In this document: positions 24,953 to 41,614 of the stretch, one piece after another
Layout: the number at the start of each line of letters is the position of its first letter
Position numbering within the stretch: the stretch's first letter is position 1
Assembly: GCF_000315055.1 (NCBI RefSeq)
Contig: NZ_BAER01000017.1
Coordinates: 1-64,000, forward strand
From: Paraglaciecola polaris LMG 21857
GTDB lineage: Bacteria > Pseudomonadota > Gammaproteobacteria > Enterobacterales > Alteromonadaceae
Reading direction: 5' to 3'
Length of the DNA stretch: 64,000 nt
Notes under the pieces: model-generated
Told to the model about the DNA's origin: nothing
The model's input: the letters and a program-made list of their open reading frames with translations, nothing else
Database searches by the model: none
Translations under genes and position numbers: made by a program

Positions 24953-26087
24953 TTAAAATAGATGTGAAACAATAAAGGCAAGGCTGTATGCCAGCATGCC
25001 ATAGCCCACAAACAACCCCCATGCAATATTTTTACTGCCTGTTTCGCCCTTAAGTGTCGCGACCGTGGCCACACATTGCAAGGCAACTACATAGAAAATC
25101 AGCAATCCTAGCCCTGCCCCAAGCGTAAGGCCATCAGCTTGGATATTGGCCGCTAGGCCTGCGATATTCTCGTCAGCGCCTTCAATACCAAATAGCGTAC
25201 CTAATGCGCCAACAAAAACCTCTCTCGCTAAGAATGAGACTAAAATTGCGACCCCATAACGCCAGTCTAATCCTAACGGTGCGAAAATCGGCTCGATCCA
25301 CTGCCCTATCATCGCTAAGTAAGAATCCTGCAGTGCATGCTCTGGGCTGGGAAAGTAGCCTAAAAACCATATGACCACAGAAACCACAAAAATAACCGGA
25401 CCCGCACGGCGAATAAACTGCTTCGCACTGGTGAGCACTCTTAACATCAAGGGCTTCCAGTGGGGTAAACGATAATTCGGTAGCTCTAGGATAAAGGGCA
25501 TTTCAGCCTTATCGCTGTCGCGATCAGTAAATTTATTGAGCAAAACGCTGACCGTAAGTGCGGTGAATATACCTAAGAAATACAGGACAAAAAATGCGCT
25601 GCCTTGAAGGCTAAACAAGCCACCGAGATAGGTAGTATCAGGGATAAGAACCGCTATAAGCAGCGCATAAACAGGTAAACGAGCAGAGCACGACATTAGT
25701 GGTATCGTCATCATGGTGATCAAACGCTTACGAGGCGACTCTATCGTTCTGGCCGCCATAATTGCAGGGATCGCACACGCATGCCCGGATAGGTATGGAA
25801 TAAAGCTGCGCCCTGATAGTCCAAAATAGCTTAGTGGTTTATGGCATATCAAAGCGGCTCTGGCTAAATAACCGCTGTCTTCCAGTAACCCTATGATAAA
25901 GGTCAGAACCATTATTTGCGGCACAAACACAAGGAATGAACCAAATCCACCAAATAACGCATCCTGTAAAAAATCGTTAACTATTCCAGGGCCAATGGAA
26001 GAAGTAACCACCTGGGCCAACAACCCAATCAAACTTTCAACGCCGTCCATTAGGGGGGTGGCCCAAGTAAATATACTTTGGAATAAT
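24953..26087 (-). pseudogene. feoB: feoB, 3' fragment (membrane channel), cut off by transposon
   Basis: The C-terminal membrane half of ferrous iron transporter FeoB: FVPQIMVLTFIIGLLEDSGYLARAA, SGHACAIPAIMAARTIESPRKR and MSCSARLPVYALL form the Gate cores, and AREVFVGALGTL follows. It is 365 residues from the first internal ATG at 26050, but feoB sequence continues upstream in frame (QSIFTWATPL) to the target duplication at 26080-26087. It then meets the transposon, where an in-frame TAG follows. The G domain is 14.7 kb away at 40797. No good ribosome binding site precedes the ATG at 26050. Joining the two fragments at the duplication gives an intact protein of about 605 residues. Confidence 0.95.
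26080..26087 (+). repeat. Target-site duplication, left copy
   Basis: GGAATAAT immediately before the left end of the transposon. The identical octamer is at 40797-40804. Eight bases is the size made by ISL3-family transposases. Confidence 0.93.
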
Positions 26088-26111
26088 GGCTATTTGCATT
26101 CTAGGGTTGGA
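26088..26111 (+). repeat. Left terminal inverted repeat of the transposon
   Basis: It begins GGCTATTTGCATTCTAG and ends GGTTGGA. It matches the reverse complement of 40773-40796 at 19 of 24 positions, with the first 11 and the last 7 identical. Confidence 0.92.
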
Positions 26112-26413
26112 ATTGCCTTTTTTAAATTCAATTCTTATTTCTAATACCTAGTGCTTGGTTGGTTGGATTTATCGAACTAAGTGTATGTTTCTTGCAGCTA
26201 TGGTCTGGTTGGTTTGAGTGCTTTTTTTCTAAAAATTGCTTGTGATATTATCTAATCTAATGAGTGAGTGGCATTGAGCCACCCTAGCTTAGCTTTCACG
26301 TGTATTTTTGAGGGACTTGTTGAACAAATAGTTGAACGTTCTCGGTACGCGTTGATCAGATCGTCGAGTCAAGCCGATTGTCAATGGCCATTAACACCGA
26401 TACCGTACACCAT

Positions 26414-27161
26414 AATGGGCAGTGTCAAATACCGAGTTAAAAACTGGTCTAAACACAATAAAGCCTTTAAATCTCGGAGCTCTGTAACTTTCTGGCGAGA
26501 AGAGAAAGCTACCGCTCAGTGGTAGCATGATCCACCGAACGGTGAAGATAAAGTTCCACGTCCCGCGGGTCCTGTAACGCACGTAGTTTTTGATGCTACG
26601 GGGCTGAAAGTTTTGGTGAAGGCGAATGGAAAGTCCACAAACACGCCTAGGAAAAGCGCCGTACCTGGCGTAAACGTTGAAAGCGAACAGGTAGTGTGCG
26701 AAGAAATCTCGCTAGTCAATGTTGGGGACAATGAGGTTCTCCCAACCATGCTAAAAAGATGGAGCGGCAAAAGTAGGCAACGTTGTCAGTGACGGAGCCT
26801 ACGACACACAAAATGCTACCGAGAAATCTCTCGTAAGAAGACAGTAACCCTATACCCCGGCGCCGCAATGTCAGGTACTGGTGTTGACAGCGTGGCAACT
26901 ATCCGAGAAACGACGCAGTTAAGTTTTTGAAGCAAGGGCAGTTGGCGCAATGGAAGCATGTGTCAGCAACAATTCTAAATGTCCGGACATTTTAAGTTGG
27001 TGTTGACACATGGCACCGTCTCACCACCAGCGCTCATTAGTGGAATCCGCGATGTGGCGATTCAAAAGCTACAACGCGCAGGTAGGAGAGGACTAGTGCG
27101 AGTAGCCGTACTTAATAAATCAACCCGCCTTGGGATGCCTGTGAGGGAAATGGCGCGCTAA
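26414..27161 (+). pseudogene. Decayed IS5-family transposase
   Basis: An ATG at 26414 begins MGSVKYRVKNWSKHNKAF..RSSVTFW.EE, the N terminus typical of IS5-group transposases. About 100 residues are then missing. The catalytic-core sequence resumes in changing frames: VVFDATGLKV, FGEGEWKVHKHA, ISLVNVGDNEVLPT, SDGAYDTQNA, and finally VAVLNKSTRLGMPVREMAR. At least four frameshifts, an in-frame stop after ATAQW and an internal deletion make it inactive. The order of blocks follows the family, so this is one decayed copy rather than several genes. Its terminal repeats could not be fixed; sequence resembling the IS leader begins near 26310. Confidence 0.8.
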
Positions 27162-27164
27162 CCC

Positions 27165-27476
27165 TATGAATAGGGAAAGGAGCCATTTTATCCTCGACAT
27201 TGATGCGATAAACAAGGCCATTAAATATTCTCATGAGGTTGAGAATATGCAAGAAGAAACTAAAAATAATCCTTATGCATTAATAGTTTGTACTGACCAA
27301 AAATTATTTTAGCTCAAACTATTGACCGACAAATATCTTGACCGATTATGTGGTTCACGCGGCACTTAGCAAATATTTACCGAAACCAAAGGTGGTGTGA
27401 GAAGTGCAAAGTGAAAAGGGCTTCGAAAGCCATTTGCGGTAAACAACCTTACAATTTAATAGAACGTAACTCCCAA
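27165..27476. other. Non-coding stretch inside the transposon
   Basis: A/T-rich sequence between the decayed IS5 copy and the deacylase gene. No reading frame with a supported start and no clear repeat was seen. Confidence 0.4.
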
Positions 27477-28028
27477 TTAGAAGGTATTACTCCAAGTTAA
27501 ACCGAAAAAATCGAGGCCATCATTAGGACTATCAATGTCTGCATTTGAATAGTGCACGTATGCCAGCGTTAATCGTGCATTTGAATAAGCCGAATACTGC
27601 CAACTTAACCCAATGCGGTCTTCAAACTGAAAACGCGTGGATAAACGTCGGTCGCCCAAGCGCGTGCCATCCAGATAACTGCCGCCAATACCGGCTTCCA
27701 CATACAGCGGACGAGGCCCATCGGTAAGCTGCCATGCCAACACTGGGCTAATCGTCAACGCAAAAACATTATCTGAACGGTCATTGGAGTTTTGCCAATT
27801 GTTTAACGCACCTTCAATATGCAGCTTTGGACCTCCCAACCACGTCCAATCCTCCAATATTGACAGCCGGATATCAGTAACCCGGTACCCAACGCGTGCA
27901 CCACGCAACTGATCCGTTGAGTACGAACCCGCCATATGCCACTCGTCCGCCTGTGCTGATGCTGAATTCATCAACCCCCAAAAACCAAAGACCATAGCCA
28001 CAATTAATGCCAAAAATCCTTTGCTCAT
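27477..28028 (-). CDS. PagL-like lipid A 3-O-deacylase
   Basis: A 183-residue outer-membrane beta-barrel protein. I chose the ATG at 28028 because it is preceded by GGAGGG and begins a Sec signal peptide (FLALIVAMVFGFWGLMNSASAQA). The strand pattern of alternating residues and the motif AYVHYSNADIDSPNDGLDFFGL near the C terminus match PagL, which removes the 3-O acyl chain of lipid A. In Pseudomonas PagL the catalytic residues are His, Ser two residues later and Glu 14 after the His. Here His and Ser are present and the third position is Asp. It ends in Phe, as outer-membrane proteins do. It is cargo of the transposon, divergent from the GST gene. Confidence 0.72.
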   Translation of the reverse strand: MSKGFLALIVAMVFGFWGLMNSASAQADEWHMAGSYSTDQLRGARVGYRVTDIRLSILEDWTWLGGPKLHIEGALNNWQNSNDRSDNVFALTISPVLAWQLTDGPRPLYVEAGIGGSYLDGTRLGDRRLSTRFQFEDRIGLSWQYSAYSNARLTLAYVHYSNADIDSPNDGLDFFGLTWSNTF

Positions 28029-28175
28029 GCACCCTCCACTTTGCCTACAATCCGGCAGAGCATTCCAAACCAGAGATGAAATTATATATACATACGTAAA
28101 TGTATGTAAATAGAACGGCAGCAACTACAACACGGTCTTCAACTCAAAATTGCCTGTGGGACTCCGTTTGACTCT

Positions 28176-28205
28176 TTGAAAGAAGCCAAAACGAGAGAAT
28201 ATAAT
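28176..28205 (+). promoter_or_regulatory. Sigma-70-like promoter of the GST-cupin-TetR-AKR cargo
   Basis: TTGAAA at 28176-28181, an 18-base spacer and a perfect TATAAT at 28200-28205. It is about 70 bp before the GST start codon and the only strong promoter seen before this co-directional run. Confidence 0.6.
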
Positions 28206-28277
28206 AGCTTCTTGTCTAACTACCTATCAGAAGGTAGAATAATCATCAAATGGTTATTAATCAATAAAGGTGTTCCA

Positions 28278-28898
28278 ATGAAAATTTATGAAACCACAGG
28301 GTTTCCGAACCCACTTCGCGTTCGCATCGCCCTTGCGGAAAAAGGTGCCACCAACAAAGTGATATTTGTCCCAGTAGATGTAATGGGTGGTGAACACAGA
28401 ACCAGTGCTTTCAAGGCAAAAAACCCTGATGCCACCGTACCATTATTAGAGCTGGACGATGGCACCTGCATTGCGCATTGTAATGCTATAACCGAATACT
28501 TGGACGGTATCTTTGACGGACCATCCCTTACAGGCACGTCATCTAAAGAGCGTGCAGTTATCGCGATGATGAATATTCGTGCTGAATCCGGATTGATGAA
28601 TGCGGTGGGCGCGTATTTTCACCACGCAACTCAGGGCCTAGGGCCCGATCTTGAGACATGGCAATGTCCTGACTGGGGTAGTAAGCAGAAAGAGGTCGCC
28701 CAGTTGACCATGACCTATCTCGACGGAGTACTCACAGAAAGTGACTTTGTCGCAGGTAATCGTTTCACGGTAGCGGATATCACAGCTTATGCTGGACTAG
28801 CATTTGCGGAGTTTGCCAAGGTTGAAATTCCCGAGAACCTACGCGCTCTTAGGGCCTGGCGTGACCGGGTAGCGGCCCGACCGTCGATTAATGGCTGA
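28278..28898 (+). CDS. Glutathione S-transferase
   Basis: A 206-residue cytosolic GST-fold protein. It has an N-terminal thioredoxin-like domain ([24 protein letters not shown] ... [25 protein letters not shown]) with the cis-Pro (VPLL) and the glutathione gamma-glutamyl site (here [11 protein letters not shown] rather than the usual ES). A helical C-terminal domain ends [18 protein letters not shown]. The ATG at 28278 follows AAAGG; a start at 28176 would run through the promoter. It is likely to conjugate or isomerise electrophiles; the substrate is unknown. It heads a run with a cupin, a TetR regulator and an aldo-keto reductase. Confidence 0.87.
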
Positions 28899-28945
28899 TA
28901 TTTGTATCTTATGGCTTGTCAGACAAATTAACAAAAGGACACAGC

Positions 28946-29614
28946 ATGGAAATAAATGCAGATTTCACAAAATCCGTAGTTATTGATACCGACCAGCTGC
29001 TATGGCGTCCTTCGCCAGTGAAGGGGGTCGAGCGTAGAATGTTGGATCGCATCGGTGACGAGGTGGCTCGTGCCACCAGTATTGTGCGTTATGCGCCAGG
29101 CAGCCAGTTCTCTGCGCATACTCACGATGGTGGCGAGGAATTCATCGTACTTGACGGGGTGTTTCAGGACGAGCACGGGGATTATCCCACGGGAACCTAT
29201 GTGCGGAATCCTCCGACGACATCTCATGTGCCCGGCTCTGCCGAGGGCTGTACAATTTTTGTCAAGCTCTGGCAGTTCGATCCTGAGGATCGAAATCAAT
29301 TCAAAAAAAACATGGAAGCGGAACTGAATGCGTCAGTGGAGGGGGTTGCCACCTCGCTCCTACATGAGGACGGGCGAGAAGCGGTGACATTCCACAAGCT
29401 TGACTCCGGCGCTACTTTGAATTCTAACGCAGTCGGCGGGATTGAGATGCTAATACTGGACGGCGAAGTCATGATAAACGATGATATATTGAGTAAGAAT
29501 GCTTGGCTGCGCCTACCCGAGGGAGAAGCGTTGTCAGCAAAAGCTGGGGGCCTTGGGGCGAAAATCTGGATGAAGACTGGGCACCTTCGGTTTGTCAGGG
29601 CCCCCGAGGTGTAA
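28946..29614 (+). CDS. ChrR-like cupin-domain protein
   Basis: A 222-residue protein. The first cupin half has [52 protein letters not shown]. It contains the HxH...E...H metal-ligand set seen in ChrR-type cupins. A second barrel follows with [16 protein letters not shown]. The start at 28946 follows AAAAGGAC. Such proteins act as metal-dependent sensors or enzymes in stress responses; the specific function is unknown. It lies 47 bp after the GST gene, in the same direction, and is probably co-transcribed. Confidence 0.8.
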
Positions 29615-29658
29615 TTGACCGGGGCCTAAACACTAACTACATCAACCATTAGATATTT

Positions 29659-30243
29659 ATGAACCGTGATACAAGAACAACCCTGCTTGACATCGCAGAG
29701 TACAACGCTCGGTCAAGGGGCTTTGATGGGTTTAGCTATGCCGATCTTGCTGTAGCCGTTGGCATTAGAAAGGCTTCCATTCATTATCATTTTCCGACTA
29801 AGGCGGATCTATCCGATCATCTGATCGTTCGGTATCACACCAGTTTGAAAGAACGCCTAGCTGAAATAGAGAACGACCATCTTAGCGCTGACGAACGTCT
29901 GATGGCTCTCATCAGATTATACCGAGAGGCACTGAATGGAGGCCAAACTGTCTGCCTTTGCGTTGCGTTTTCAATATGCCGAGAACGCATTTCCGAAAAG
30001 GTTGTGATACGGGTTGGTGCGGTTCGAGCAATGCTGCTGAAATGGATTAAAAGCAATTTTGAACTGGGTCTGAAAGACAGGTCCATTTCGCTCATTACTG
30101 CTCCCGAAGAAGAAGCCTGTGCGACATTAGCAATGTTGGAAGGAGCTCACCTAGCGGCTCGCACAGCACAAGACACGGCGCCGTTTGATGCTGCAATACA
30201 AATGTTGCTGGGTAGATGCCGACAAAGTGCTCGGAAAGAATAA
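29659..30243 (+). CDS. TetR-family transcriptional regulator
   Basis: A 194-residue regulator. The N-terminal TetR helix-turn-helix is at residues 6-55 (LLDIAEYNARSRGFDGFSYADLAVAVGIRKASIHYHFPTKADL), followed by a helical ligand-binding domain with a Cys-rich short segment (VCLCVAFSICRE). Its position between the cupin and aldo-keto reductase genes suggests that it controls this cluster. The hairpin CCCGAC/GTCGGG just downstream could be an operator. Ligand unknown. Confidence 0.9.
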   Translation: MNRDTRTTLLDIAEYNARSRGFDGFSYADLAVAVGIRKASIHYHFPTKADLSDHLIVRYHTSLKERLAEIENDHLSADERLMALIRLYREALNGGQTVCLCVAFSICRERISEKVVIRVGAVRAMLLKWIKSNFELGLKDRSISLITAPEEEACATLAMLEGAHLAARTAQDTAPFDAAIQMLLGRCRQSARKE

Positions 30244-30273
30244 TTGATTGACATCTGAGTTCTAATGAAAAGA

Positions 30274-30290
30274 CCCGACAATAAGTCGGG
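30274..30290. promoter_or_regulatory. Inverted repeat between TetR and aldo-keto reductase genes
   Basis: CCCGAC-AATAA-GTCGGG, a perfect 6-bp dyad 30 bp after the TetR stop and about 29 bp before the reductase start. It is a candidate operator for the TetR protein, or a weak terminator. Confidence 0.4.
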
Positions 30291-30318
30291 ACATTAACCT
30301 GTTATAAAGAGGTGTAAC

Positions 30319-31401
30319 ATGACCACTGATAAAATACCGAACTTCGAACAAAATCATATACGCTACAGAGCTCTCGGAAACTCCGGATTGATGGTCTCTG
30401 AACTCTGTCTTGGAACCATGACCTTTGGTGGTGACGAAGATATTTGGGGTCTAATTGGGCAACTGCGGCAGGAGCAAGCTGACGAGCTTGTAAGAATAGC
30501 CCTGCAGGCCGGCATCAACTTCATCGATACGGCTAATATTTATGGTCTCGGCGCTAGTGAGCTTATCGTCGGGCAATCCTTGAAAAACCTCGGAGTTCGC
30601 CGAGAGGATGTCGTTTTGGCGACCAAGGTGCTCGGCCCTATGGGCGAGGGGCCCAATGCCCGTGGAGCGTCCCGTGGCCACATCATGAACGAGTGCAAGG
30701 CAAGCCTAAGTCGTTTGCAAACTGACTATATCGACTTATACCAGATCCATGGCTTTGATCCGGCCACTCCAATCGAAGAAACGCTGGAGGCACTCAACAC
30801 CCTGGTACAACAGGGGTATGTGCGTTATGTAGGCTTGTCCAACTGGGCCGCTTGGCAGGTCATGAAGGCCATCGGTATTAGCCAGGCCCGAAATCTGTGC
30901 CCAGTGACTTCGCTGCAGGCCTACTATACCCTAGTTGGCCGCGAGCTGGAGCGGGAAGTTATCCCCATGCTATCGTCGGAAAAGGTAGGGTTGATGGTGT
31001 GGAGTCCACTAGCCGGTGGTTATCTTTCCGGCAAATACGAAGGTCCTGACGTGTCCGAGGAGAACCGTCGTGCCAAATTCGATTTTCCTCCAGTTAACCG
31101 TGAACGGGGCAGAGACATTATAAAAGTAATGCGTGAGGTGGCCGACGGAAAGCAGATTGACGGAGAACCGGTCAGTGTGGCTCAAATTGCACTAGCCTGG
31201 TTACTTCACCAAGAGTCTGTCTCCAGTATTATCGTTGGTGCCAAGCGACCAGAGCAGCTGAAAGCCAATATCCGGGCCGCACAGATCCGATTCTCTGATG
31301 ACGAGCGTAAAGCTCTGGACGAGGTGAGTCGTATACCGGAGGAGTACCCGGGCTGGATGATGGAAATGATGGCCGGGTACCGAAATTCTTCTAAGTTCTG
31401 A
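30319..31401 (+). CDS. Aldo/keto reductase
   Basis: A 360-residue NADPH-dependent oxidoreductase. The AKR tetrad is visible: Asp in FIDTANIYG (with the catalytic Tyr), Lys in VLATKV, and His in YQIHGFDPATPIEE. The NADP-binding C-terminal block is SIIVGAKRPEQLKANIRAA. It follows the TetR gene after about 75 bp, with a good start (GAGGTGTAACATG). AKRs of this type reduce aldehydes and ketones, so with the GST and cupin this looks like a detoxification set, which is an inference from context. The 68-bp tandem repeat begins within its last codons and includes its stop. Confidence 0.93.
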   Translation: MTTDKIPNFEQNHIRYRALGNSGLMVSELCLGTMTFGGDEDIWGLIGQLRQEQADELVRIALQAGINFIDTANIYGLGASELIVGQSLKNLGVRREDVVLATKVLGPMGEGPNARGASRGHIMNECKASLSRLQTDYIDLYQIHGFDPATPIEETLEALNTLVQQGYVRYVGLSNWAAWQVMKAIGISQARNLCPVTSLQAYYTLVGRELEREVIPMLSSEKVGLMVWSPLAGGYLSGKYEGPDVSEENRRAKFDFPPVNRERGRDIIKVMREVADGKQIDGEPVSVAQIALAWLLHQESVSSIIVGAKRPEQLKANIRAAQIRFSDDERKALDEVSRIPEEYPGWMMEMMAGYRNSSKF

Positions 31402-31527
31402 ATTCGATCGTGACCCTCTGCACACAATTCGCTGCGTCCTAGCGGCGCAGCGGTTCAATTAAGTTCTGAATTCGATCGTGACCCTCTGCACACAATTCGC
31501 TGCGTCCTAGCGGCGCAGCGGTTCAAT
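31393..31527 (+). repeat. 68-bp tandem duplication over the aldo-keto reductase stop codon
   Basis: Two adjacent copies (31393-31460 and 31461-31527) of a unit starting AAGTTCTGAATTCGATCG. They are identical except at the final base or two. Each copy contains the TGA context of the reductase and a GCTGCG/CGCAGC dyad that could form a weak terminator stem. Confidence 0.92.
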
Positions 31528-31576
31528 GATGAAAATCGTGAGCGACCAGAATTCGCAGTGTTCAGGATTGAAGCCC

Positions 31577-32068
31577 TTATGAGTCATGAAGTTCTTCTTG
31601 TTCGGCGGCGATTGTCGGGAGTAACAACTGAACCTGACCACTAGCGATCGGTTTGCTTTTATCGTTCTGCCAGCAGGTCACACTGACCAAGCTGGACCGC
31701 CTGCCTTGCCGAACAATTTCTGCGCTCGCGAAAGTCGATTGGGCCTTCGCGGAACGAAGATAGTTTACGTGGCTGTCGATGATACGCGGGCAACGTTTAT
31801 CTCTATCTTTGCTCTGTGCAGCCACCCGAGCGGTGAGTTCAATCAGGGCTCCAACTACACCTCCATGGAGGGCTGGTAGCATGAAGTTGCCAATCAGCGT
31901 TTCATTACACGGCAAGTAAACCAATACAACTGCATCACCGCACTGTACCTGAAGTCCAAGGTGCTGTGCGTAGGGAATACGCTCCAACAGAGCTTTCCAG
32001 TCAGCACATTTCTCCCTACTTTCTGCAGCGCGCGATCTTTGTTGTGCCAAATCATCTGTCTTACTCAT
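31577..32068 (-). CDS. PaaI-type hotdog thioesterase (second of a pair)
   Basis: A 163-residue hotdog-fold protein. LPALHGGVVGALIELTARVAA is the family helix with its conserved HGG, followed by DSHVNYLRSA and ASAEIVRQGRRSSLVSVTCWQNDKSKPIASGQVQLLL. These enzymes hydrolyse acyl- or aryl-CoA thioesters. Its ATG overlaps the stop of the upstream paralogue by 4 bp (ATGA), so the two are translationally coupled and may form a heteromer. Substrate unknown. It converges with the aldo-keto reductase gene. Confidence 0.82.
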   Translation of the reverse strand: MSKTDDLAQQRSRAAESREKCADWKALLERIPYAQHLGLQVQCGDAVVLVYLPCNETLIGNFMLPALHGGVVGALIELTARVAAQSKDRDKRCPRIIDSHVNYLRSAKAQSTFASAEIVRQGRRSSLVSVTCWQNDKSKPIASGQVQLLLPTIAAEQEELHDS

Positions 32069-32553
32069 ACGCTGTTCTTCTTTAATCCATTTGAGTGGAA
32101 TTGCTGTCCATGAGTGTTTCTCATGAAGGTGGCCTTTGCCGTAGCCAATAATTCGCTATCAGCCTCGCAGAAAATGTCGCAATCAATGAACGCGACCTGG
32201 TCTGTTAAATGACGACAGGTAGCTACAGCCAACAGGGCTCGGTCGCCGTTGGCAGGCCGCAAATAATCCATGCGCAGATCCAGCGTAGCAATGGGCATCA
32301 ACTCCATGGCCCCTGCAATTACGGCCAAGCCTCCGGCGGAGTCTGCCAGCGAATAAAGTAAGCTGGTGCAGATTTCTTTCGTATCCTCTTGCGCGAACAT
32401 CCATGACTGTGGAGTCAGACGCATACGGACCTGGTCTCGGTCTACCGAGACGACCTGAATGCCGAGAGCTCTAGCGTGAGGAACCTGCTCAGTGAACTGG
32501 CACGCAGCCGTAACAACATGACTGTGCTGGAGTCTGCTTAGCTCGTTCATCAA
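32065..32553 (-). CDS. Hotdog thioesterase (first of a pair)
   Basis: A 162-residue hotdog-fold protein, distantly similar in layout to its downstream neighbour. LLYSLADSAGGLAVIAGA occupies the position of the usual HGG helix, with an Asp-Ser-Ala-Gly-Gly in place of HGG. LDLRMDYLRPANGDR and ATCRHLTDQVAFIDCDIFCEADSELLATAKATFM follow. The start at 32553 gives a typical length. It overlaps the next thioesterase by 4 bp. Both are cargo genes of the transposon's left half. Confidence 0.78.
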   Translation of the reverse strand: MMNELSRLQHSHVVTAACQFTEQVPHARALGIQVVSVDRDQVRMRLTPQSWMFAQEDTKEICTSLLYSLADSAGGLAVIAGAMELMPIATLDLRMDYLRPANGDRALLAVATCRHLTDQVAFIDCDIFCEADSELLATAKATFMRNTHGQQFHSNGLKKNSV

Positions 32554-32653
32554 AGCTGCCCAGCTAGGTATGTATTTCTTGCAGGCGCGGAAGTTTTGGA
32601 GATCAGTTGAATTCTATAGGTCATGAAGATAGCGTTCTCTTGTGGATAACGTT

Positions 32654-32673
32654 GTTTACGGATTCTGGTTGAT
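32654..32673 (+). repeat. Possible degraded internal ISL3-type terminal repeat
   Basis: GTTTACGGATTCTGGTTGAT shares ATTCT and GGTTG with the outer left end (ATTCTAGGGTTGG), with a two-base gap. It reads inward toward tnpA, the orientation expected of a left end for an older, shorter element. The match is short. Confidence 0.3.
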
Positions 32674-32842
32674 TAACTGATCAAAAGTCAAACACTTTGT
32701 TGAACTAAACGGAATGGGACCGGCGCAATGGCGTACGGTCATTGCAACGAGCCTTACCGCAAGCTTATCGTCAAAATGCGTTGTAAACTGATCCTGAAAC
32801 GAGTTTCTAAGTTTGGCAATGTCCATGTGCTTTCATATTCTT

Positions 32843-34111
32843 TTAGTCGAGTTCACCGCTCTCTGCCTGCTTTAGCAACGTTGGAATATGCGGACCATAC
32901 TCGACCTTACCTCTGCCTGTACGGATGCCACTACCAACCTTGCGAGCTTCACCTGAATACAGCGTTTTTGCGCGAATGATGTCGTAACTGTAACCACGGC
33001 CGAGTCGGTTCGACATTTTTATCAAACCATTCAACCCTTCGGTATAAGCATTCGTGATAGGGAACGGTGCATCCCAGTACGCAAAAATATCGTGATAGTG
33101 GTTATGGACCGTTTTCACCAGCTTTTTGAAAGGCTCCATGCCATGAGGAGGGAGGCTGTTTTCCCAAGCTTCAAATGCGTTTTGCGCTTTTTGTTTGTCT
33201 GGCTCATCGTAGATCCCAAAAAAGCTTTCCTTGAAATCGTATGCTATTGCCAGCTCAGGAATAGCTTGGCGCACGACAGCCAACGCATTTTGCTCCGCAG
33301 GCGATAGATTCCCGGGTCGTTTAAGTGTAAGCCAGCGGATCGACTTTTTGACGTGAATGCGCTGCTCTCTACTCAATTGAGCTTGGTATTTTTTACGCTC
33401 CTCTTCTAACGCTTCTGAGGCCATCTTCACAACATGAAATTTGTCGATAACGAGCTTTGCGTTTGGCAGGTACTGGGAAAACGAACGTTTAAACGGTCGC
33501 CACATATCCGTACAAACCCATTCAACCTTTTCTCTGTCGGGGAGGTCTTTGAAGAAGGGCTTGAGGTGGTCTTGTGTACGGTGCTCCAGCATGTCAAAAA
33601 CGTTATTGGTTGCCAAGTTGGTAATGACACAACGATAACCACCTGCAAGGTTTACTTCATCAATTCCCATAATGATTGGGGTTTCATAGCGAACCGTTTG
33701 TTCGAGCTCCTGAATTAAATCGTGGGCGATATTTTTGACGGTATTAACGGCAACCCCTGTCTGGTCGGCCAAAGCGCGAAAGGTGGTACTCAGGCATTGC
33801 TGACGGATAACATCAACCAAACGCTTGGTAGCACGGCGCTTATCGTCGAGAAAGCTAAGTTCAGGCATGGCCATCTTGCCGCAGGATTCGCAGCGAAAAC
33901 GAGGTCGTTTAATTTCAAGTCGAACAGGCTCCATATACAAAGGCGTGTCAGAGAATTTATTGACGCGTGTACCGTGCTTGTGCATTGGGATATCGCAGGC
34001 GGTGCACATTGGCACGTCAATAACATCAGGCTCAGCCACTATAATTAGCGCTTTGCTTTCTTTGTACATATCTACTGGCTTAATGCCCGGCAAATTCAGC
34101 AAATCAAGCAT
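32843..34111 (-). CDS. tnpA: ISL3-family transposase
   Basis: A 422-residue DDE transposase. The N terminus has a zinc-finger-like pair (CTACDIPMH and CESCGKMAMP), then a helix-turn-helix (TTFRALADQTGVAVNTVKNI). Catalytic residues are suggested by GIDEVNLAGGYRCVI (first Asp), VCTDMWRPF (second Asp) and TNAYTEGLNGLIK (Glu), as in ISL3. The ATG at 34111 lies 4 bp after the hsdR stop; a TTG at 34114 is the alternative. Translation is therefore likely coupled to the restriction operon. No stop or frameshift is seen, so it may be active, and it is the best candidate for having moved the surrounding 14.7-kb element. Confidence 0.93.
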   Translation of the reverse strand: MLDLLNLPGIKPVDMYKESKALIIVAEPDVIDVPMCTACDIPMHKHGTRVNKFSDTPLYMEPVRLEIKRPRFRCESCGKMAMPELSFLDDKRRATKRLVDVIRQQCLSTTFRALADQTGVAVNTVKNIAHDLIQELEQTVRYETPIIMGIDEVNLAGGYRCVITNLATNNVFDMLEHRTQDHLKPFFKDLPDREKVEWVCTDMWRPFKRSFSQYLPNAKLVIDKFHVVKMASEALEEERKKYQAQLSREQRIHVKKSIRWLTLKRPGNLSPAEQNALAVVRQAIPELAIAYDFKESFFGIYDEPDKQKAQNAFEAWENSLPPHGMEPFKKLVKTVHNHYHDIFAYWDAPFPITNAYTEGLNGLIKMSNRLGRGYSYDIIRAKTLYSGEARKVGSGIRTGRGKVEYGPHIPTLLKQAESGELD

Positions 34112-34115
34112 CAAG

Positions 34116-37100
34116 CTAGTCCATGTCCAAATCTATGTTTTTGTTTTCACGCAGCATGTCATAGACAACATCGACGAGCGCAATCATGCCTTGGCGGTCT
34201 GACTTGAGAACCTGCGTGGCCAGCTTCTGGTGGCTCGATAAAGCACGAACGACCGCTTGTTGCACCGCTCCCGGAAGATTTCCCTTTAACGCCTGCTCTC
34301 GCGAGTTACTCTCGACCTGAGCCATAACAACATCGCTTTCACCTGCTATGGATTTTATCTGGTTGACGAATGCCACCTGATCTTGAATCGGTGTTGCTTC
34401 CCCAAAGAGGCTATTAAGCCTGTCGATGATCTCTTTAACGAACTTCGGCTTGTCGCCTGTCACGCCACCGCCGCCGGGGCCGACTGGTTTAAGTACGGGG
34501 GCATTACTATCTTCGTCAACAGCGTCGGAGCGGGCTTTGATATCAAACCCTGTCAGCACCAAGCCTGTTAAATCAACAGTTTCGGGCGCTTCATGCATTA
34601 TTCGCTTCTGAAGCAGCTTTGCAAAAGCCGCAAAATTCTCTAATTCAGGATCACCAAAGTCTATCAATTGCGCAATATAAGAATAGGTTCGACAAAAGCG
34701 CCCAAGGTCGGATTTAAAGCCCATTAACGTCTTAATTTGCTCTGCGTATTCCTCTTGATGGTGATCAGCAGACTTCATACCCGCTTCATCGCCTTTTGCG
34801 TGAGCCTTTTGGAAAGCGGCTTCCCATGTAGACATGCCATCACGAAGCATCTTCATTTTGTCGTTATAGAGGTTCGTCGCATCGCTGGTCGCTGCATACA
34901 GGGCTTTGTGCTGTGGTGATTTTGTGTGTGTAATATCCCGTATGGTTTTGAACCGAGCCTCTTTGAACGCGGCTAAGTCCTTTTCATCGTACAGGCTGTG
35001 TTCATCGAGGCGCTCTTTGATCTCATACACCACATTCAGATTCTGGATTTCATCAATTTTTGCCCCTTGGTCATAGGTCTCAAAAGCCATACGAACGTTC
35101 TCTGGGTCATTTACAAAGTCGATGATAAACACCTCATCCTTGCCCGGTGCCATGCGGTTAAGACGAGCGAAGGTCTGCACAATCTCTACGTGGTTGGCTA
35201 TTTTTTTATCCACATACATAGCGACCAACTTGGGTTGGTCAAAACCCGTTTGGAACTTATCGGCCACTAACATGACGCGATACTCGGGCCTGTCAAATGC
35301 AAAGCGTAAGTCTTGTCCCTGAGCGCTTGGGTTCATTGACGATTCGGTGAACTCTTCGTTTTCATCACAAACGAAAATGTCATCCCCCAACAACCCATCA
35401 TCTTGATGCATGACCTGTTTGCCCATCATCTTGCCTGAAAAGGCCACCAGTGAGTGAATGAAGCCATACTCACTGTGTTGCTCTATGTATCGGTCGAACG
35501 CCTTCTTATAGCGTATAGCGGCTGCACGAGAGCTGGTTACGACCATTGCCTTGGCTTTACCGTCAAGACGATGAGCAACGTTCTTCGTAAAGTGTTCAAT
35601 AATGAACTGAACTTTTTGGGTCACGTTGGTTGGATGCAACGCCATCCATTGCGCCAAAGCTCTTTTTGCAGCCTTTCCACTTACACGCTTACTGTCTTCA
35701 AGTTGTTTTGAGAGGTTAAACGCAGTTTGATAAGGCACGTAGCCTTTAAGCACGTCTAAGATAAACTTCTCTTCAATGGCTTGGCGCATGGTGTACTTGT
35801 GAAATGCAACCGGGGGATTGTCATCGGATACGGGCTGAGAGGGATCTTCTGGGCGGCCAAATAGCATCAATGTAGAGTGCTTTGGCGTACCAGTAAACGC
35901 AAAGTAACTGATATTGTCAGGACGAGCGCGTGATTTTTGTAATTGCTCCAGAATTTCGTCTACGGTCATCGTGGACATTTTTCCCTGACCACTCATGCCA
36001 AGGGCGGCTTGCAATTTAGCTGCGGTCGAGCCCGTTTGCGAATTGTGAGCCTCATCAATGATTACGGCAAAGTTTTTACCTTTCAGGGATTTGTCGGTAA
36101 TGATGGCTTCCATCGCATAGGGGAAGGTTTGAATCGTTACAACGACAATTGGCGTTCCAGCTAACAATGCTTCGGACAGTTGCTTACTTTTCGGCTTGGA
36201 AGACTTTTCTCTGTCTATCGCTGCAATAACCCCAAACTGATGGTCAATTTGCTTTACCGCATCCTGTAATTGGCCGTCCAGTACATTCCGGTCTGTCACG
36301 ATGATGACACTGTTAAATATCGCGTCACCATTATCTTCGCGCAGCTTCACTAAATCGTGCGCTGTCCATGAAATGGTACTTGTTTTTCCTGAGCCAGCAC
36401 TGTGATCAGCTAAATAGGTCATGCCAGCACCATTTTTGCGTGCATCGGCGAGCATGGCATTAACCGCTGTCCATTGGTGAAAACGTGGGAAAATAAGGGT
36501 TTCTTTCTTAGACCAGTTGCCTTGAATGTCCACCACATCCTTTTTTTCGACATACACAAAACTATGGAAAATACGCAGCCATGCATCGGGTTGGCAGACG
36601 TCTTCCCAAAAGTACGCAACCGGATACTCCTGCGTTCCGTCAGGTTTAATCTCTCCCGGAGGATTTCCGGCATGAATCGCGCCGTCTTCGTCTTTGCGGC
36701 CTTTGTTAAACGGCAAGAAAAAGGTGTTTTCACCTTCCAGCTTAGTTGCCATCATGATTTCGGAGTCGGACATTGCAAAATGCACGACAGCGCCCCGTTT
36801 AAAGGTTAGTAGTGGTTCTTTGCGCTTAGTTTTTGGGTCGAATGGCAAGCGGTCATTTCGATACTGATCCATAGCAGCTTCGGCAGATTGAGTAAAATCG
36901 GTTTTAAGTTCTACCGTGGCCACAGGAAGGCCATTGATGAACATCACCAAATCAATCGCAAACTCACGAGCAGGGTGATACTTCAACTCAGGCACTACAC
37001 GCAGTATATTGGCCTTGTAGCGGTTGGTCACGGCTTCGTTACGCTTGTCTTCAGGCGCGGTCTCGGTCATTTCAATCAGACCGCAGCCTGCAATAGAGAA

Positions 37101-37373
37101 GCCCTGACGTAATACATGCATGGTTCCATGCTGCTCAAGTGCCTTGCCTAGGCGCTCAATAAGAACAGATAGCGTTCTTGCTCCATTCAGGCGCTCAAGT
37201 TTGTCCCATTTATCCTGCTGGCCACTGCTTTTGATCCAGCTTTCAATGTCTTCAGGATACAAGGCCCGCTCGGTGTCGAAGTGCTTGGTCTCGCCCAACT
37301 TCCATCCCTGTTCGAGTAATCGCTCAACGATGTAGTGTTGAAAATGTTTTTCCTGATGCGCTGACGAATCCAT
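34116..37373 (-). CDS. hsdR: Type I restriction enzyme R (HsdR) subunit
   Basis: A 1085-residue motor and nuclease subunit. The N-terminal nuclease has the PD-(D/E)XK pattern (FAIDLVMFINGLPVATVELKTDF). The translocase has Walker A DHSAGSGKTS near residue 322, a DEAH box (IDEAHNSQTGS) near 439, the motif TGTPK, and QTFARLNRM in the second lobe. A C-terminal helical region would bind the methylase. It starts immediately after the hsdS stop and is followed at 4 bp by tnpA. It looks intact, but it needs an M2S core to work, and hsdM is frameshifted here. Confidence 0.95.
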   Translation of the reverse strand: MDSSAHQEKHFQHYIVERLLEQGWKLGETKHFDTERALYPEDIESWIKSSGQQDKWDKLERLNGARTLSVLIERLGKALEQHGTMHVLRQGFSIAGCGLIEMTETAPEDKRNEAVTNRYKANILRVVPELKYHPAREFAIDLVMFINGLPVATVELKTDFTQSAEAAMDQYRNDRLPFDPKTKRKEPLLTFKRGAVVHFAMSDSEIMMATKLEGENTFFLPFNKGRKDEDGAIHAGNPPGEIKPDGTQEYPVAYFWEDVCQPDAWLRIFHSFVYVEKKDVVDIQGNWSKKETLIFPRFHQWTAVNAMLADARKNGAGMTYLADHSAGSGKTSTISWTAHDLVKLREDNGDAIFNSVIIVTDRNVLDGQLQDAVKQIDHQFGVIAAIDREKSSKPKSKQLSEALLAGTPIVVVTIQTFPYAMEAIITDKSLKGKNFAVIIDEAHNSQTGSTAAKLQAALGMSGQGKMSTMTVDEILEQLQKSRARPDNISYFAFTGTPKHSTLMLFGRPEDPSQPVSDDNPPVAFHKYTMRQAIEEKFILDVLKGYVPYQTAFNLSKQLEDSKRVSGKAAKRALAQWMALHPTNVTQKVQFIIEHFTKNVAHRLDGKAKAMVVTSSRAAAIRYKKAFDRYIEQHSEYGFIHSLVAFSGKMMGKQVMHQDDGLLGDDIFVCDENEEFTESSMNPSAQGQDLRFAFDRPEYRVMLVADKFQTGFDQPKLVAMYVDKKIANHVEIVQTFARLNRMAPGKDEVFIIDFVNDPENVRMAFETYDQGAKIDEIQNLNVVYEIKERLDEHSLYDEKDLAAFKEARFKTIRDITHTKSPQHKALYAATSDATNLYNDKMKMLRDGMSTWEAAFQKAHAKGDEAGMKSADHHQEEYAEQIKTLMGFKSDLGRFCRTYSYIAQLIDFGDPELENFAAFAKLLQKRIMHEAPETVDLTGLVLTGFDIKARSDAVDEDSNAPVLKPVGPGGGGVTGDKPKFVKEIIDRLNSLFGEATPIQDQVAFVNQIKSIAGESDVVMAQVESNSREQALKGNLPGAVQQAVVRALSSHQKLATQVLKSDRQGMIALVDVVYDMLRENKNIDLDMD

Positions 37374-38684
37374 TTATTCTTCTCCTCGCAGATCAATTTG
37401 ACCAGTTACTGCGGCGGTAATAAAAGCGGCTCTGCGCTCAGTAAGTAGCGCAACGCTGTGTTGTGTTTTTTCAATAAGCGCATCAATTCTTGCTGTTTGC
37501 TGGTTCAGGTATTGTGCTATGCGCTTCTGCTCTTCTAACGGCGGTTTCGGTAATTTCACTTGTCGAAAATTGCCATAATTCAAATCTTGTCCATCGCGTA
37601 TAAAGCTGGATGTAGCCTGCAATCCTTGAATATAAGCGCTGGATTTAAAGAGATACGCGAAATAATCGACGTCCGCTTCATCAGAGGCTTTTAGAACAAC
37701 ATATGATGACCGGACACAGCCGCGAGCTTTTACTCTCTCTATACCACCTTGGAAGCTACGCATACTTATCACAAAATCATCGAGTTCAACGTGTTTGCGC
37801 TTTTCTAGGTTTTTAATGGCATGGGTAACTTGCCGATTCTCTAGTCGCTCATATTCGGATAAAGGTATAACGCCATATTTCTGAGTCGCAGACAAGTGTT
37901 GGTCATCTTCGCGGGCTGTTTCTTTGCTCTCAGCGAACAACCAAATACCCGGAACGACCTCCCAATGAGACGGCACTTGCTCAACCCACTTAATACCAGA
38001 CTCTTGGAGGTTCGCGTTTTTTACAATGCCTGTTGTAACACTATGGGTAATGAGCGCCTGTCGTTTTTCTTTTAACAGCTCGACAAATTTATTTTTTTTG
38101 GATACTAACTTATCGATACGTTCGATTTCTTTGTCGATTTCCGCAGATATTACAGCTTGCTCGTTGTAAGGCGGTATCGCAACCTTAAAAACTTGGAAAA
38201 GTTCTGACGGAACCCTCTTTAAACCCCCTGTGCCGGTCATCTCTGAAATGGCTATTCTTCTGAATTGGTCTTCTTGCAACCGATAATAAAGGAAGCGGGT
38301 GTTGATGCTGCTTTTAGCTCTTATTACATTTATTTCTGTAGAGCCAAAGCCTATCCGATTAGTTAAATCGGCCGCGACCGCGATGTTTCTGTTTTCGAAA
38401 CATGGTGTCACCTTCGCAATTAAAATGTCACCATCAGAAAAATAGCTATAGCCTTCATACACCTCATCGACTACTCGTATCTCATCCAAAACAATGGTGT
38501 CTGTTTTTAACTTCTCCATCGGCAAGAAAGAGCATAAGGCGTAACGTCTATTTGCAACGGCTGATTTCGTTGGATTTAAATCAAAGAGATATTTAAATCG
38601 CGTAACACTCCAATGTTTCGGAATTTCACCAAGCCAAGCAACATTAGATTCTTTAAAACGTGAATAGGTCGCATGGTACTTCAT
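37374..38684 (-). CDS. hsdS: Type I specificity subunit (HsdS)
   Basis: A 436-residue DNA-recognition subunit with two target-recognition domains in tandem. The first begins SNVAWLGEIPKHWSVTRF and ends at a conserved helix (IDKEIERIDKLVSKKNKFVELLKEKRQALI). The second begins GIKWVEQVPSHWEVV and ends in the matching helix (ARIDALIEKTQHSVALLTERRAAFI). The two halves set a bipartite target, which cannot be predicted here. Its ATG overlaps the hsdM stop by 4 bp. Confidence 0.93.
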   Translation of the reverse strand: MKYHATYSRFKESNVAWLGEIPKHWSVTRFKYLFDLNPTKSAVANRRYALCSFLPMEKLKTDTIVLDEIRVVDEVYEGYSYFSDGDILIAKVTPCFENRNIAVAADLTNRIGFGSTEINVIRAKSSINTRFLYYRLQEDQFRRIAISEMTGTGGLKRVPSELFQVFKVAIPPYNEQAVISAEIDKEIERIDKLVSKKNKFVELLKEKRQALITHSVTTGIVKNANLQESGIKWVEQVPSHWEVVPGIWLFAESKETAREDDQHLSATQKYGVIPLSEYERLENRQVTHAIKNLEKRKHVELDDFVISMRSFQGGIERVKARGCVRSSYVVLKASDEADVDYFAYLFKSSAYIQGLQATSSFIRDGQDLNYGNFRQVKLPKPPLEEQKRIAQYLNQQTARIDALIEKTQHSVALLTERRAAFITAAVTGQIDLRGEE

Positions 38685-40709
38685 TCTGTTGCCAACTCAG
38701 CTAAAAGAGCAGCTATCTCGGCCTCAACTTCTTTCAACTCTGTGTCAATATCACGCAACTTACGTGGTTGCTGATATTCATAGAAGAATCGGTTGAAGTT
38801 GATTTCATAGCCGACGCGACCAAGCTTCTTGTCTTTATTGTCGATAAAGCTTTCATCAATGTATGCATCAGGCACATGAGGAAGCACTTCACGAGCAAAA
38901 TACTCGTCAATGCTGTCCATGTAAGGAACGTTTTCATAATCAGTTAAGTCAGTATCGGCTATGAAATTACCTTTAGCATCCGTAACTGGTTCTGCGTCGG
39001 CATTCTTATGGCCAAACGCATCAACTAGCGCTGTAACGAATGCCTTTGGGGCTTTAAGTTTTAGCGCCTTTGCCTCTGGTGTTTTAGCTGTGTCTTTCGC
39101 AAAGCTATCTGCCCATTGGTACGGCAGCGTCTCGCCTGTAAACGGCTTTAGCGCGTTTAGCCAGAATGACTGGTGCTCAGCAGGTAACTTGCCCCATGCT
39201 GCTTCGTCTTGCAGACGTTTCAATCCTGCATCATCCAATTGAAGCTTCATTCGCAAAGGGCGCAGCACTTTAATGCGCCGATAACCAAAGGTACGGTAAT
39301 CCAGCATGCGAGATAGCTCATCATTTTCGCCCGCCGCATAGATTTCTAAAATTTGTCGCTGCTGGTCATCGCTTACGATTCGACGTTTGTTACCCTCGTT
39401 TTTAATGGGTGACCACAAGCTGGTTGCATTAATGAGCTGTACTTTCCCTTTGCGTTCATCCGCCTTTTTATTGGACAAGACCCATAAGTAGGTTGCTATG
39501 TTTGTACGGAAGAATATATCGGTTGGCAAAGCCACAATAGCTTCTACCAAATCTTTCTCTAAAAGCCACCGACGGATCTCTGATTCACCAGAGCCAGCGC
39601 CGCCATTAAATAGCGGGGAGCCGGATAGGACAATTGCCGCACGACCACCACCGTTATCTGGTAACTCTAACTTGCTAGCCAGATGCATAAGGAAAAGCAT
39701 TGAGCCGTCACTAATTTTGGGAAGGCCGGGACCAAAACGGCCTAGCTCACCTTTTTCGTGCTCACTCTCAACTGCCTTTTTATCCTTTTCCCACTTCTTG
39801 CCAAACGGTGGGTTGGATAAGCAATAGTGAAATCGCTCACCAGCAAACTGATCGTTAGACAAGGTACTGCCTTGGCGAATGTTCTTGGATAAGTCACGAC
39901 CGGGGTCGGACTCCAATCGACGAATTAGCATACCTGCTACACATACGGCATGCGTTTCAGGTTCTAGTTCTTGGCCATGAGGAACGAGCACAGGAGGGAT
40001 TTTTCCACTGCTCCCATACTCACTCACATGGTTCATGGCATCGGTCAGGAATCCACCAGTGCCGCAGGTCGGATCGTAAAGCGTGCGAATTAGACCGGGA
40101 CTGGCTTCAAAAAGGGCATCATCAGGATCAAGCAGGAGCGCTGTTGCTAAGTGAACAATGTCACGAGGTGTCATGAAATCCTCAGCGCCTTCGTTAACCT
40201 CTGCACCAAAGCGGCGGATCAAGTGTTCATAAATATTGCTCATCACTCGGTCTGGAACGGCGTCAGGGTGTAAGTCTATGCCCGCAAAGTTCTGGCAAAT
40301 CTTATATAGCAATCCAGCCTTTTCCAGCCTGATTATCGTGTTACCGAATTCAAACTCCTCAAAGATAGCTCGCGCATTATCAGAGAATAGCGCAATGTAA
40401 TCTTCGAGGTTACGCCGAGTCTTTGTACTACTCTAATGAATCGAGTGAATATTCCGAAGTATTGTAGAAGGGGTAGTTAGCTGTTGAACGAAGGATAGGG
40501 TCAAGCTCAACATCAGCCTCTTTGAATGAACGGTAAGCTTCTCGGACGGCTTCACGAGTCGGTTCAAGTGCGCACTCCAAACGACGCAATAACGTGAACG
40601 GCAAAATGATCTTGCCAAAATCCGTATGTTTAAAATCTCCCCACAGATCTTCTGCGTTCTTCCAAATAAAATCAGCTTGTGAAGCTGCCGATCCTGTAAA
40701 TTCCGTCAT
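38681..40709 (-). pseudogene. hsdM: Type I methyltransferase (HsdM), +1 frameshift
   Basis: The ATG at 40709 is preceded by TTGGAGG. The first 90 or so residues (MTEFTGSAASQADFIWKNAEDLWGDF to SEYSLDSLE) stop at a TAG near 40428. The other frame continues without a break in protein homology (STKTRRNLEDYIALFSDNARAIFEEFEFG, then LLYKICQNF) to the stop at 38681. Removing one base near 40432 gives LGSTKT and an intact protein of about 675 residues. The distal part carries the SAM-binding motif DPTCGTGGFL and the adenine-methylase motif SNPPFG. As read, no full methylase is made. This may be an inactivating mutation or a sequencing error; no long homopolymer lies at the site. Confidence 0.9.
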
Positions 40710-40772
40710 TTTGGCCTCCAACCACCTTTTGCACAAAAGAGAGTTGATTCCAGTTTAATTACTCAGATAGAA

Positions 40773-40796
40773 TCCAACCTTGTATTGCAAATAGCC
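40773..40796 (-). repeat. Right terminal inverted repeat of the transposon
   Basis: Read on the minus strand from 40796 it begins GGCTATTTGCAATAC and ends GGTTGGA, matching the left repeat at 19 of 24 positions. Confidence 0.92.
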
Positions 40797-40804
40797 GGAA
40801 TAAT
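40797..40804 (+). repeat. Target-site duplication, right copy
   Basis: GGAATAAT, identical to 26080-26087, directly beyond the right end of the transposon. Confidence 0.93.
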
Positions 40805-41614
40805 AAAAACATAATTCCAAAAAACGCGATACCACCCAAAACATTGTTCAGTAAAAAACTGTCAATGTGGTTCTGTTGTTTTAGGACGATATCAGCATGG
40901 ATACCATAACGCTTGGCGATCTGTCGACTGACATTAAATACACTGTCGTCTGCCGCTACACTTATAGTAGGGATATAATTTCGGGGTTGCGCAATGATCA
41001 CATTCAATGCCAGTTTAAATTCGTGCAGACCAATAAGTGTCTTGGCGGATAACGGAAAAACTGACGCACCTAAATCTTTTGCTAACTGTTCACAATCAAT
41101 TTGATGGCTAAAACGCTCAACCTCATCAATCATATTCAATGCGAAAACAAGGGCTTTATCATGTTGCTTGGCTAAGTCTCGCACTTGTAAACCAAATACC
41201 AAGCTACGTTCCAATCGCGTTGCGTCTAAGTTACACACAATCAGGCCAGTGTTATCGTCATGCATCGCTTCATGTATTTTTTCAACTGCGATTTCTTCAT
41301 CTCTGGATAAGGTACTGAGAGAATAGGCACCTGGAAAATCGATTAATTGATGATCTGAAAACTTTCCGCTTTTAAGTTCAACTGTCACACCTGGAAAGTT
41401 CGCTACTTTCTGACGCATTCCGGTTAACTGGTTAAACAGCAGGCTTTTTCCCGAATTCGGCTTACCGACTAAAATTATATTTTTCATTACATTACTTGAT
41501 TATATAGGCGCTAATCTGGCACCTGAAGAAAGAAGAAAAGGTTTATATCCACGCCTAAAGGCTGACAGAACGGTGAAGTAATTTGCTGTCAGGGCTGATA
41601 TTTAACAAGAGAGA

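Follow-up and report, generated by a model that had tools for sequence, protein, structure and literature searches.

A type I restriction-modification array ending in tnpA as the probable core of an ISKpn25-like ISL3 transposon in feoB

Introduction

The locus described here, in which a transposase gene directly follows a set of type I restriction-modification (R-M) genes, raises the question of whether these genes make up one mobile unit or are merely neighbours. It lies in a 64,000-nt stretch of Paraglaciecola polaris LMG 21857 (contig NZ_BAER01000017.1), referred to here as the window.

ISKpn25, which is spread on Klebsiella plasmids, has usually drawn notice only because it disrupts mgrB. 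It belongs to the ISL3 family, is 8,154 bp long and includes ORFs of 684, 438, 1085 and 422 aa (ISfinder data in PMC8796155); in Table 1a of that paper the ORF function labels appear to be shuffled relative to the coordinates, the first ORF (hsdM) being labelled transposase. Elsewhere, hsdM has been named as a passenger gene of ISKpn25 (PMC5142620), and several fresh 8,154-bp insertions flanked by 8-bp duplications were found in a trap plasmid in E. coli (PMC8768599). A preliminary description of the window knew of no described family with the order hsdM-hsdS-hsdR-tnpA; however, this order is already known from ISKpn25 (pKPN4, NC_009650), which shares the 4-nt gap between hsdR and tnpA and the sizes of HsdR (1085 aa) and TnpA (422 aa).

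Results

The array and the limits of the element

All four genes are on the minus strand (Table 1). The hsdR stop and the tnpA start are separated by 4 nt, and hsdS directly adjoins hsdR and shares 4 nt with hsdM. Between the hsdM ATG (40709) and the element end at 40796 the distance is 87 bp. The coordinates and Pfam matches bear out the gene order, the 4-nt gap, the abutting or overlapping hsd genes and the distance of hsdM from the right end that the preliminary description had given. The span it delimited, 34111-40709, holds the hsd genes but covers only part of the element, the other end of which is at 26088, and hsdM has the place assigned to it in the array but is not an intact gene, because it is frameshifted near 40432.

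Table 1. Features of the element and of the interrupted feoB gene (positions in the window)
Feature	Position	Strand	Evidence or remark
feoB, interrupted, 3' part	24953..26087	-	In frame with 5' part once element and one target-site duplication removed
Target-site duplication, left copy GGAATAAT	26080..26087	.	Identical to 40797-40804
Terminal inverted repeat, tnpA end GGCTATTTGCATTCTAGGGTTGGA	26088..26111	+	20/24 match with opposite end
Subterminal GGTTG array, tnpA end	26105..26211 (copies 26105, 26157/26161, 26207)	+	Offsets as in other tnpA ends
PagL-type lipid A 3-O-deacylase	27477..28028	-	Pfam PF09411 2.1e-31
Glutathione S-transferase	28278..28898	+	Pfam GST_N/GST_C
ChrR-like cupin protein	28946..29614	+	Pfam PF12973 5.1e-41
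TetR-family regulator	29659..30243	+	Pfam TetR_N 1e-7
Aldo/keto reductase	30319..31401	+	Pfam PF00248 5.6e-78
PaaI-type thioesterase	31577..32068	-	Pfam 4HBT
Second thioesterase	32065..32553	-	Pfam 4HBT
tnpA, ISL3-family DDE transposase, 422 aa	32843..34111 (ATG 34111)	-	Pfam DDE_Tnp_ISL3 PF01610 2.4e-59; PF13542 2e-11
hsdR, type I restriction subunit, 1085 aa, open	34116..37373	-	Pfam HSDR_N, SWI2_SNF2, T1R_D3-like
hsdS, specificity subunit, 436 aa	37374..38684	-	Pfam Methylase_S; 24-54 % identical to HsdS of relatives
hsdM, frameshifted, probable pseudogene	38681..40709 (ATG 40709)	-	HsdM_N, N6_Mtase in different frames
Lone remaining subterminal repeat TTTTGTGCAAAAGGTGGTTG	40719..40738	-	Directly before hsdM ribosome-binding site
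Terminal inverted repeat, hsdM end GGCTATTTGCAATACAAGGTTGGA	40773..40796	-	20/24 match with opposite end
Target-site duplication, right copy GGAATAAT	40797..40804	.	Identical to 26080-26087
feoB, interrupted, 5' part	40797..41487	-	Pfam FeoB_N 2.4e-43

The hsdM-end repeat GGCTATTTGCA is matched exactly at one further site in the window, inverted and at 26088, and this repeat match places the element at 26088-40796, a length of 14,709 bp (~14.7 kb). Both ends are flanked by the identical 8-bp target duplication GGAATAAT. When 26088-40796 and one GGAATAAT were excised in silico, a continuous open feoB frame was obtained, and the joined junction (600 bp) aligned as a single piece in six genomes of the same genus (593-598 columns, with 0-6 gap positions in all). 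The restored frame and the alignments through the junction therefore indicate that a 14,709-bp transposon was inserted in feoB. As read from the sequence, this iron-uptake gene is disrupted by an ISKpn25-like transposon, which has the DDE transposase, the inverted ends and the 8-bp duplication of the ISL3 family, together with the gene order, tight hsdR-tnpA junction, homologous TnpA and conserved ends of ISKpn25. Another 196 genomes were sampled from the family of the host, and their matches to TnpA were no more than 39 % identical, which points to import of the element from outside.

A composite structure, with two IS copies around the cargo, was considered and is ruled out by the single copy of tnpA in the genome and the single pair of element ends. 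Composite transposons with R-M systems between IS copies likewise mobilize R-M genes (PMC3031569), but here tnpA is within the R-M array itself and there is one pair of inverted-repeat ends.

Comparison with ISKpn25 and spread among relatives

In addition to the gene order, the window element shares with ISKpn25 the inverted-repeat ends, the 8-bp duplication and, in full at the tnpA end only, the subterminal GGTTG arrays, and the first 27 nt of the two tnpA ends are identical. The proteins are 88 % (TnpA), 90 % (HsdR), 83 % (HsdM) and 33 % (HsdS) identical, and TnpAs sharing ~88 % identity with the window TnpA are annotated as ISKpn25 in plasmid records. The window element differs in its length (14,709 bp compared to 8,154 bp), which includes ~6.6 kb of extra cargo, in the frameshift in hsdM and in a 46-bp deletion in the promoter region. 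Transposition activity has been demonstrated only for the relative ISKpn25 (PMC8768599).

The preliminary description had suggested seeking the hsdR-tnpA pair in other genomes. Far from being absent from all of them, the same adjacency was found at over 40 loci in genomes of several phyla. A scan for relatives yielded 79 loci; wherever TnpA is full-length and shares at least 54 % identity, hsdR lies just upstream, and no hsdR lies just upstream where TnpA is at most 41 % identical, with one exception (L056, below). In L039, hsdR is upstream of tnpA after a gap of 413 nt. Otherwise, the junctions are +4 nt in the closer half of the loci and -8 nt (an overlap) in most others, with rarer values (5, 8, 10, 2 and -4 nt) in a few. 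The hosts named in the records include Methylophaga, Pectobacterium, Pantoea, Marinobacter, Pseudomonas, Paenibacillus, Sulfobacillus, Acidithiobacillus, Acidocella, Acinetobacter and several MAGs, a list in which draft and MAG contigs may hold misassigned or contaminating sequence. Perfect 8-bp duplications flank 20 elements, including that in the window, and L056 is one more. Among 72,556 plasmid records, 554 include the ISKpn25 hsdR-tnpA junction over at least 80 % of the query and 553 a near-full tnpA. Together with the genome loci, these counts put the adjacency well beyond coincidence. Separately, the ISKpn25 tnpA query is matched only in part, at 95-99 % identity, by ~1,050 mostly Klebsiella plasmids, in what looks like a widespread relic. 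When 369 genomes were sampled across the class, strong TnpA hits came from two genomes, which also gave the closest HsdR hits, and no TnpA adjoined HsdRs that were at most 59 % identical.

The tight junctions in most relatives (+4 or -8 nt) and the lack of a terminator-like site in the hsdR-tnpA interval of the window make co-expression of the R-M genes and tnpA very likely, and to this extent the earlier proposal of one transcript stands. A promoter-like match within hsdR (34625-34597, 9/12) may be a real promoter and so counts against this, although matches of such quality occur at chance rate.

In a tree of HsdRs, those adjacent to tnpA fall mostly in one clade, with L132, which has no tnpA, nested near its base and L056 lying apart. 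Hence, a single origin appears likely. L056 combines a TnpA of only 37 % identity with hsdMSR alongside in an 8,848-bp element with its own inverted ends, the duplication ATAAGAAA and partly similar GTGTTGGAA repeats. It may be a deep-branching member of the clade, or the association may have arisen independently. When ISL3 relatives without hsdR were searched for inverted ends (those of L058-L087 that were tried), none were found by the criteria used.

End motif, repeat arrays and the hsdM promoter

Further copies of the end motif TGCA-N6-GGTTG lie inside the elements, with a fixed spacing at each end. Among the tnpA ends compared, GGTTG copies are found near +18, +74 and +119/120 from the end, and in most hsdM ends near +18, +74 and +120, or ~10 bp off. 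Copies 2 and 3 occur together in 27/27 tnpA ends and 23/29 hsdM ends and in at most one end in any of 1,000 shuffles, though the shuffles preserve base composition only and the ends compared are related by descent and not independent. At the hsdM end, the TGCA half-site is invariant, copy 2 is GGTTGA in 24/27 and starts the TTGA -35 box, and copy 3, which overlaps the ribosome-binding site, is GGTTGGAG in 22/26. Copy 2 of the tnpA end is GGTTGG in 25/26. The -10 matches are poor in several of the hsdM-end promoters. In the window, the array is complete at the tnpA end and short of one 46-bp period at the hsdM end.

Most simply, repeats common to both ends are candidate transposase-binding sites and, as these candidate sites lie over the hsd promoter, autorepression is predicted: TnpA would repress the hsdMSR-tnpA operon. 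Against this stands the reading that the hsdM-end repeats act in transposition alone, or that a host factor or an Hsd subunit binds them, with no control of R-M expression by TnpA. This is a strong competitor, somewhat short of an even chance, since the same repeats also occur at the tnpA end, which lacks an hsd promoter, and their primary role is therefore probably in transposition, but copies 2 and 3 at the hsdM end provide the -35 hexamer and overlap the ribosome-binding site, respectively, so that bound TnpA would be expected to block expression.

Cargo and the origin of the 14.7-kb form

The ~6.6 kb of metabolic cargo, which includes the seven genes from PagL to the second thioesterase in Table 1, lies between tnpA and the far end of the window element, and parts of it resemble Marinobacter plasmid clusters. 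Over 5,000 plasmid records have a match somewhere within 26088-32842, for the most part at 80-90 % identity. Just inside the tnpA end, 26338-27180 is degraded and by eye resembles a broken IS5-type transposase. The element in an Enterobacter hormaechei IncC plasmid (L008, NZ_CP133339; duplication CATTAAAC) likewise has the core array with cargo between tnpA and the far end, but is 11,417 bp long, with open R-M genes and a different cargo, namely a UvrD/GajB-like helicase and a protein that matches CoiA_N weakly. The Shewanella sp. LC6 plasmid pSX1_LC6 (L004, NZ_CP043903) is 98.4-99.9 % identical to the window over the cargo, tnpA and hsdR tail and has the same tnpA-end repeat, but it is cut inside hsdR and is without hsdM, hsdS and the other end. 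A ~67-bp stretch after the aldo/keto reductase gene (31393-31526) is present twice in tandem in the window and once in L004.

An element end ~149 bp past tnpA, as in ISKpn25, was looked for in the window and not found, the true tnpA-side end being 6.7 kb further on. The missing usual end, together with a diverged but complete tnpA end 6.7 kb away and the same cargo block on the Shewanella plasmid, would fit an origin in which the metabolic genes formerly lay between two ISKpn25-like copies that lost their inner ends. We regard this origin as possible but doubtful, as no intermediate was found and the same slot holds cargo in L008 and other relatives, so that cargo may be captured in another way.

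The tnpA-side slot or the hsdM-hsdS interval of relatives often includes defence-like genes: in addition to the helicase of L008, a ThsB-like TIR protein and a caspase (L010), RmrA-like and PIN proteins (L018), a GmrSD-type system (L040) and PDC-M32A (L031). The metabolic cargo of the window is an exception among the relatives examined. A weak PADLOC hit to pAgo in L042 was rejected, as Pfam gives an AlbA_2/HATPase protein. Large tnpA-side cargo proteins (596-1116 aa) with no Pfam match are encoded in L027 (12734-15979), L034 (10208-13984) and L053 (11330-14677), and these are possibly undescribed defence genes.

Co-evolution and selection

Pairwise identities of HsdM, HsdR and TnpA correlate closely (r 0.957-0.969), whereas those of HsdS correlate with the other three at r 0.33-0.39. 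In a sliding comparison of close ISKpn25 relatives, hsdM, hsdR and tnpA are mostly 86-99 % identical (tnpA of L008 is lower) and the HsdS target-recognition regions 35-51 %, with one sometimes swapped and the other kept. dN/dS is ~0.03-0.15 for hsdM, 0.01-0.06 for hsdR and mostly <0.12 for tnpA, for which very close pairs give higher values. Thus, the low dN/dS and the swapping in HsdS suggest that the R-M genes are maintained with changing specificity, as expected of a working defence. Some strongly supported splits conflict among the trees of the three genes, indicating recombination.

The preliminary description called the module host-addictive, but it is unlikely that the array stabilizes the element through post-segregational killing. 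Addiction of this kind has been reported for several type II R-M systems (PMC3031569), and hsdM and hsdR are under purifying selection, but the window copy is probably inactive and HsdS swapping fits a defence role at least as well. Type I R-M systems are generally considered to be weakly addictive, which also counts against it. That an IS landed by chance beside a resident type I locus, with no functional link, although reports of R-M genes on or close to mobile elements are common (PMC4176335), is already refuted by recurrence of the arrangement with intact duplications, by the enclosure of both parts within one pair of inverted ends and one duplication, by the same adjacency and spacing across many genera, by the co-divergence of HsdM, HsdR and TnpA, and by the empty feoB sites in the six same-genus genomes.

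Decay of the window copy

A functional type I R-M system has intact hsdM, hsdS and hsdR, but in the window hsdM is frameshifted. The frameshift leads to a stop at 40430-40428 and puts the N-terminal 93 aa (HsdM_N) out of frame with the N6_Mtase part; hsdM is open in those relatives in which it is fully sequenced, and the frameshift could be an assembly error. The leader before hsdM is 87 bp compared to 133 bp in ISKpn25, one 46-bp period that includes the -35 and -10 having gone. Aligned relatives have two repeat copies 46 bp apart with the promoter between them, and the loss of these 46 bp in the window looks as if it arose from recombination between repeat copies 2 and 3. The best remaining sigma-70-like match near the hsdM start (8/12) is inside hsdM. 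Because of the frameshift and the promoter loss, the R-M system of the window copy is predicted to be inactive, with both restriction and modification probably lost. If tnpA is expressed at all, this would have to be by read-through out of the interrupted feo operon, which is possible because feoB is read in the same direction.

Discussion

We conclude that the array is, with high probability, the core of an ISKpn25-like ISL3 unit transposon in feoB, with restriction most likely off in this copy and with an operon that TnpA is predicted to repress. In the family, hsdM, hsdS, hsdR and tnpA would be transcribed from one promoter beside the hsdM-end inverted repeat, with translation of tnpA coupled to that of hsdR, and the element, the parts of which are co-linear, would move as a self-contained unit of defence and transposition. 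TnpA bound to the end-motif repeats would repress the whole operon, and entry into a new host would be predicted to bring a burst of modification, restriction and transposition, followed by shut-down. The window copy represents the other outcome, in which the restriction genes decay and an intact transposase frame is kept, along with both inverted repeats.

What is new here are the end-motif copies at fixed spacing at both ends, those at the hsdM end supplying the -35 box and overlapping the ribosome-binding site. The open literature searched includes accounts of ISKpn25 and of mobile R-M systems in general, in which the clade and the overlap of repeats with the promoter are undescribed, though ISfinder, TnPedia and subscription papers may have them.

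The comparison suggests that the R-M genes of ISKpn25 are the conserved half of a widespread transposon and not incidental cargo. More tentatively, at close to an even chance but slightly below it, there is a widespread ISL3 clade in which a type I R-M system is an obligate part of the transposition operon and under TnpA repression, host entry releases both, and the cargo slots carry further genes for defence. The overlap of the repeats and the promoter offers a directly testable route to joint regulation of transposition and restriction. If this proposal is true, the spare slots with their further defence genes would make these ISL3 transposons small mobile defence islands.
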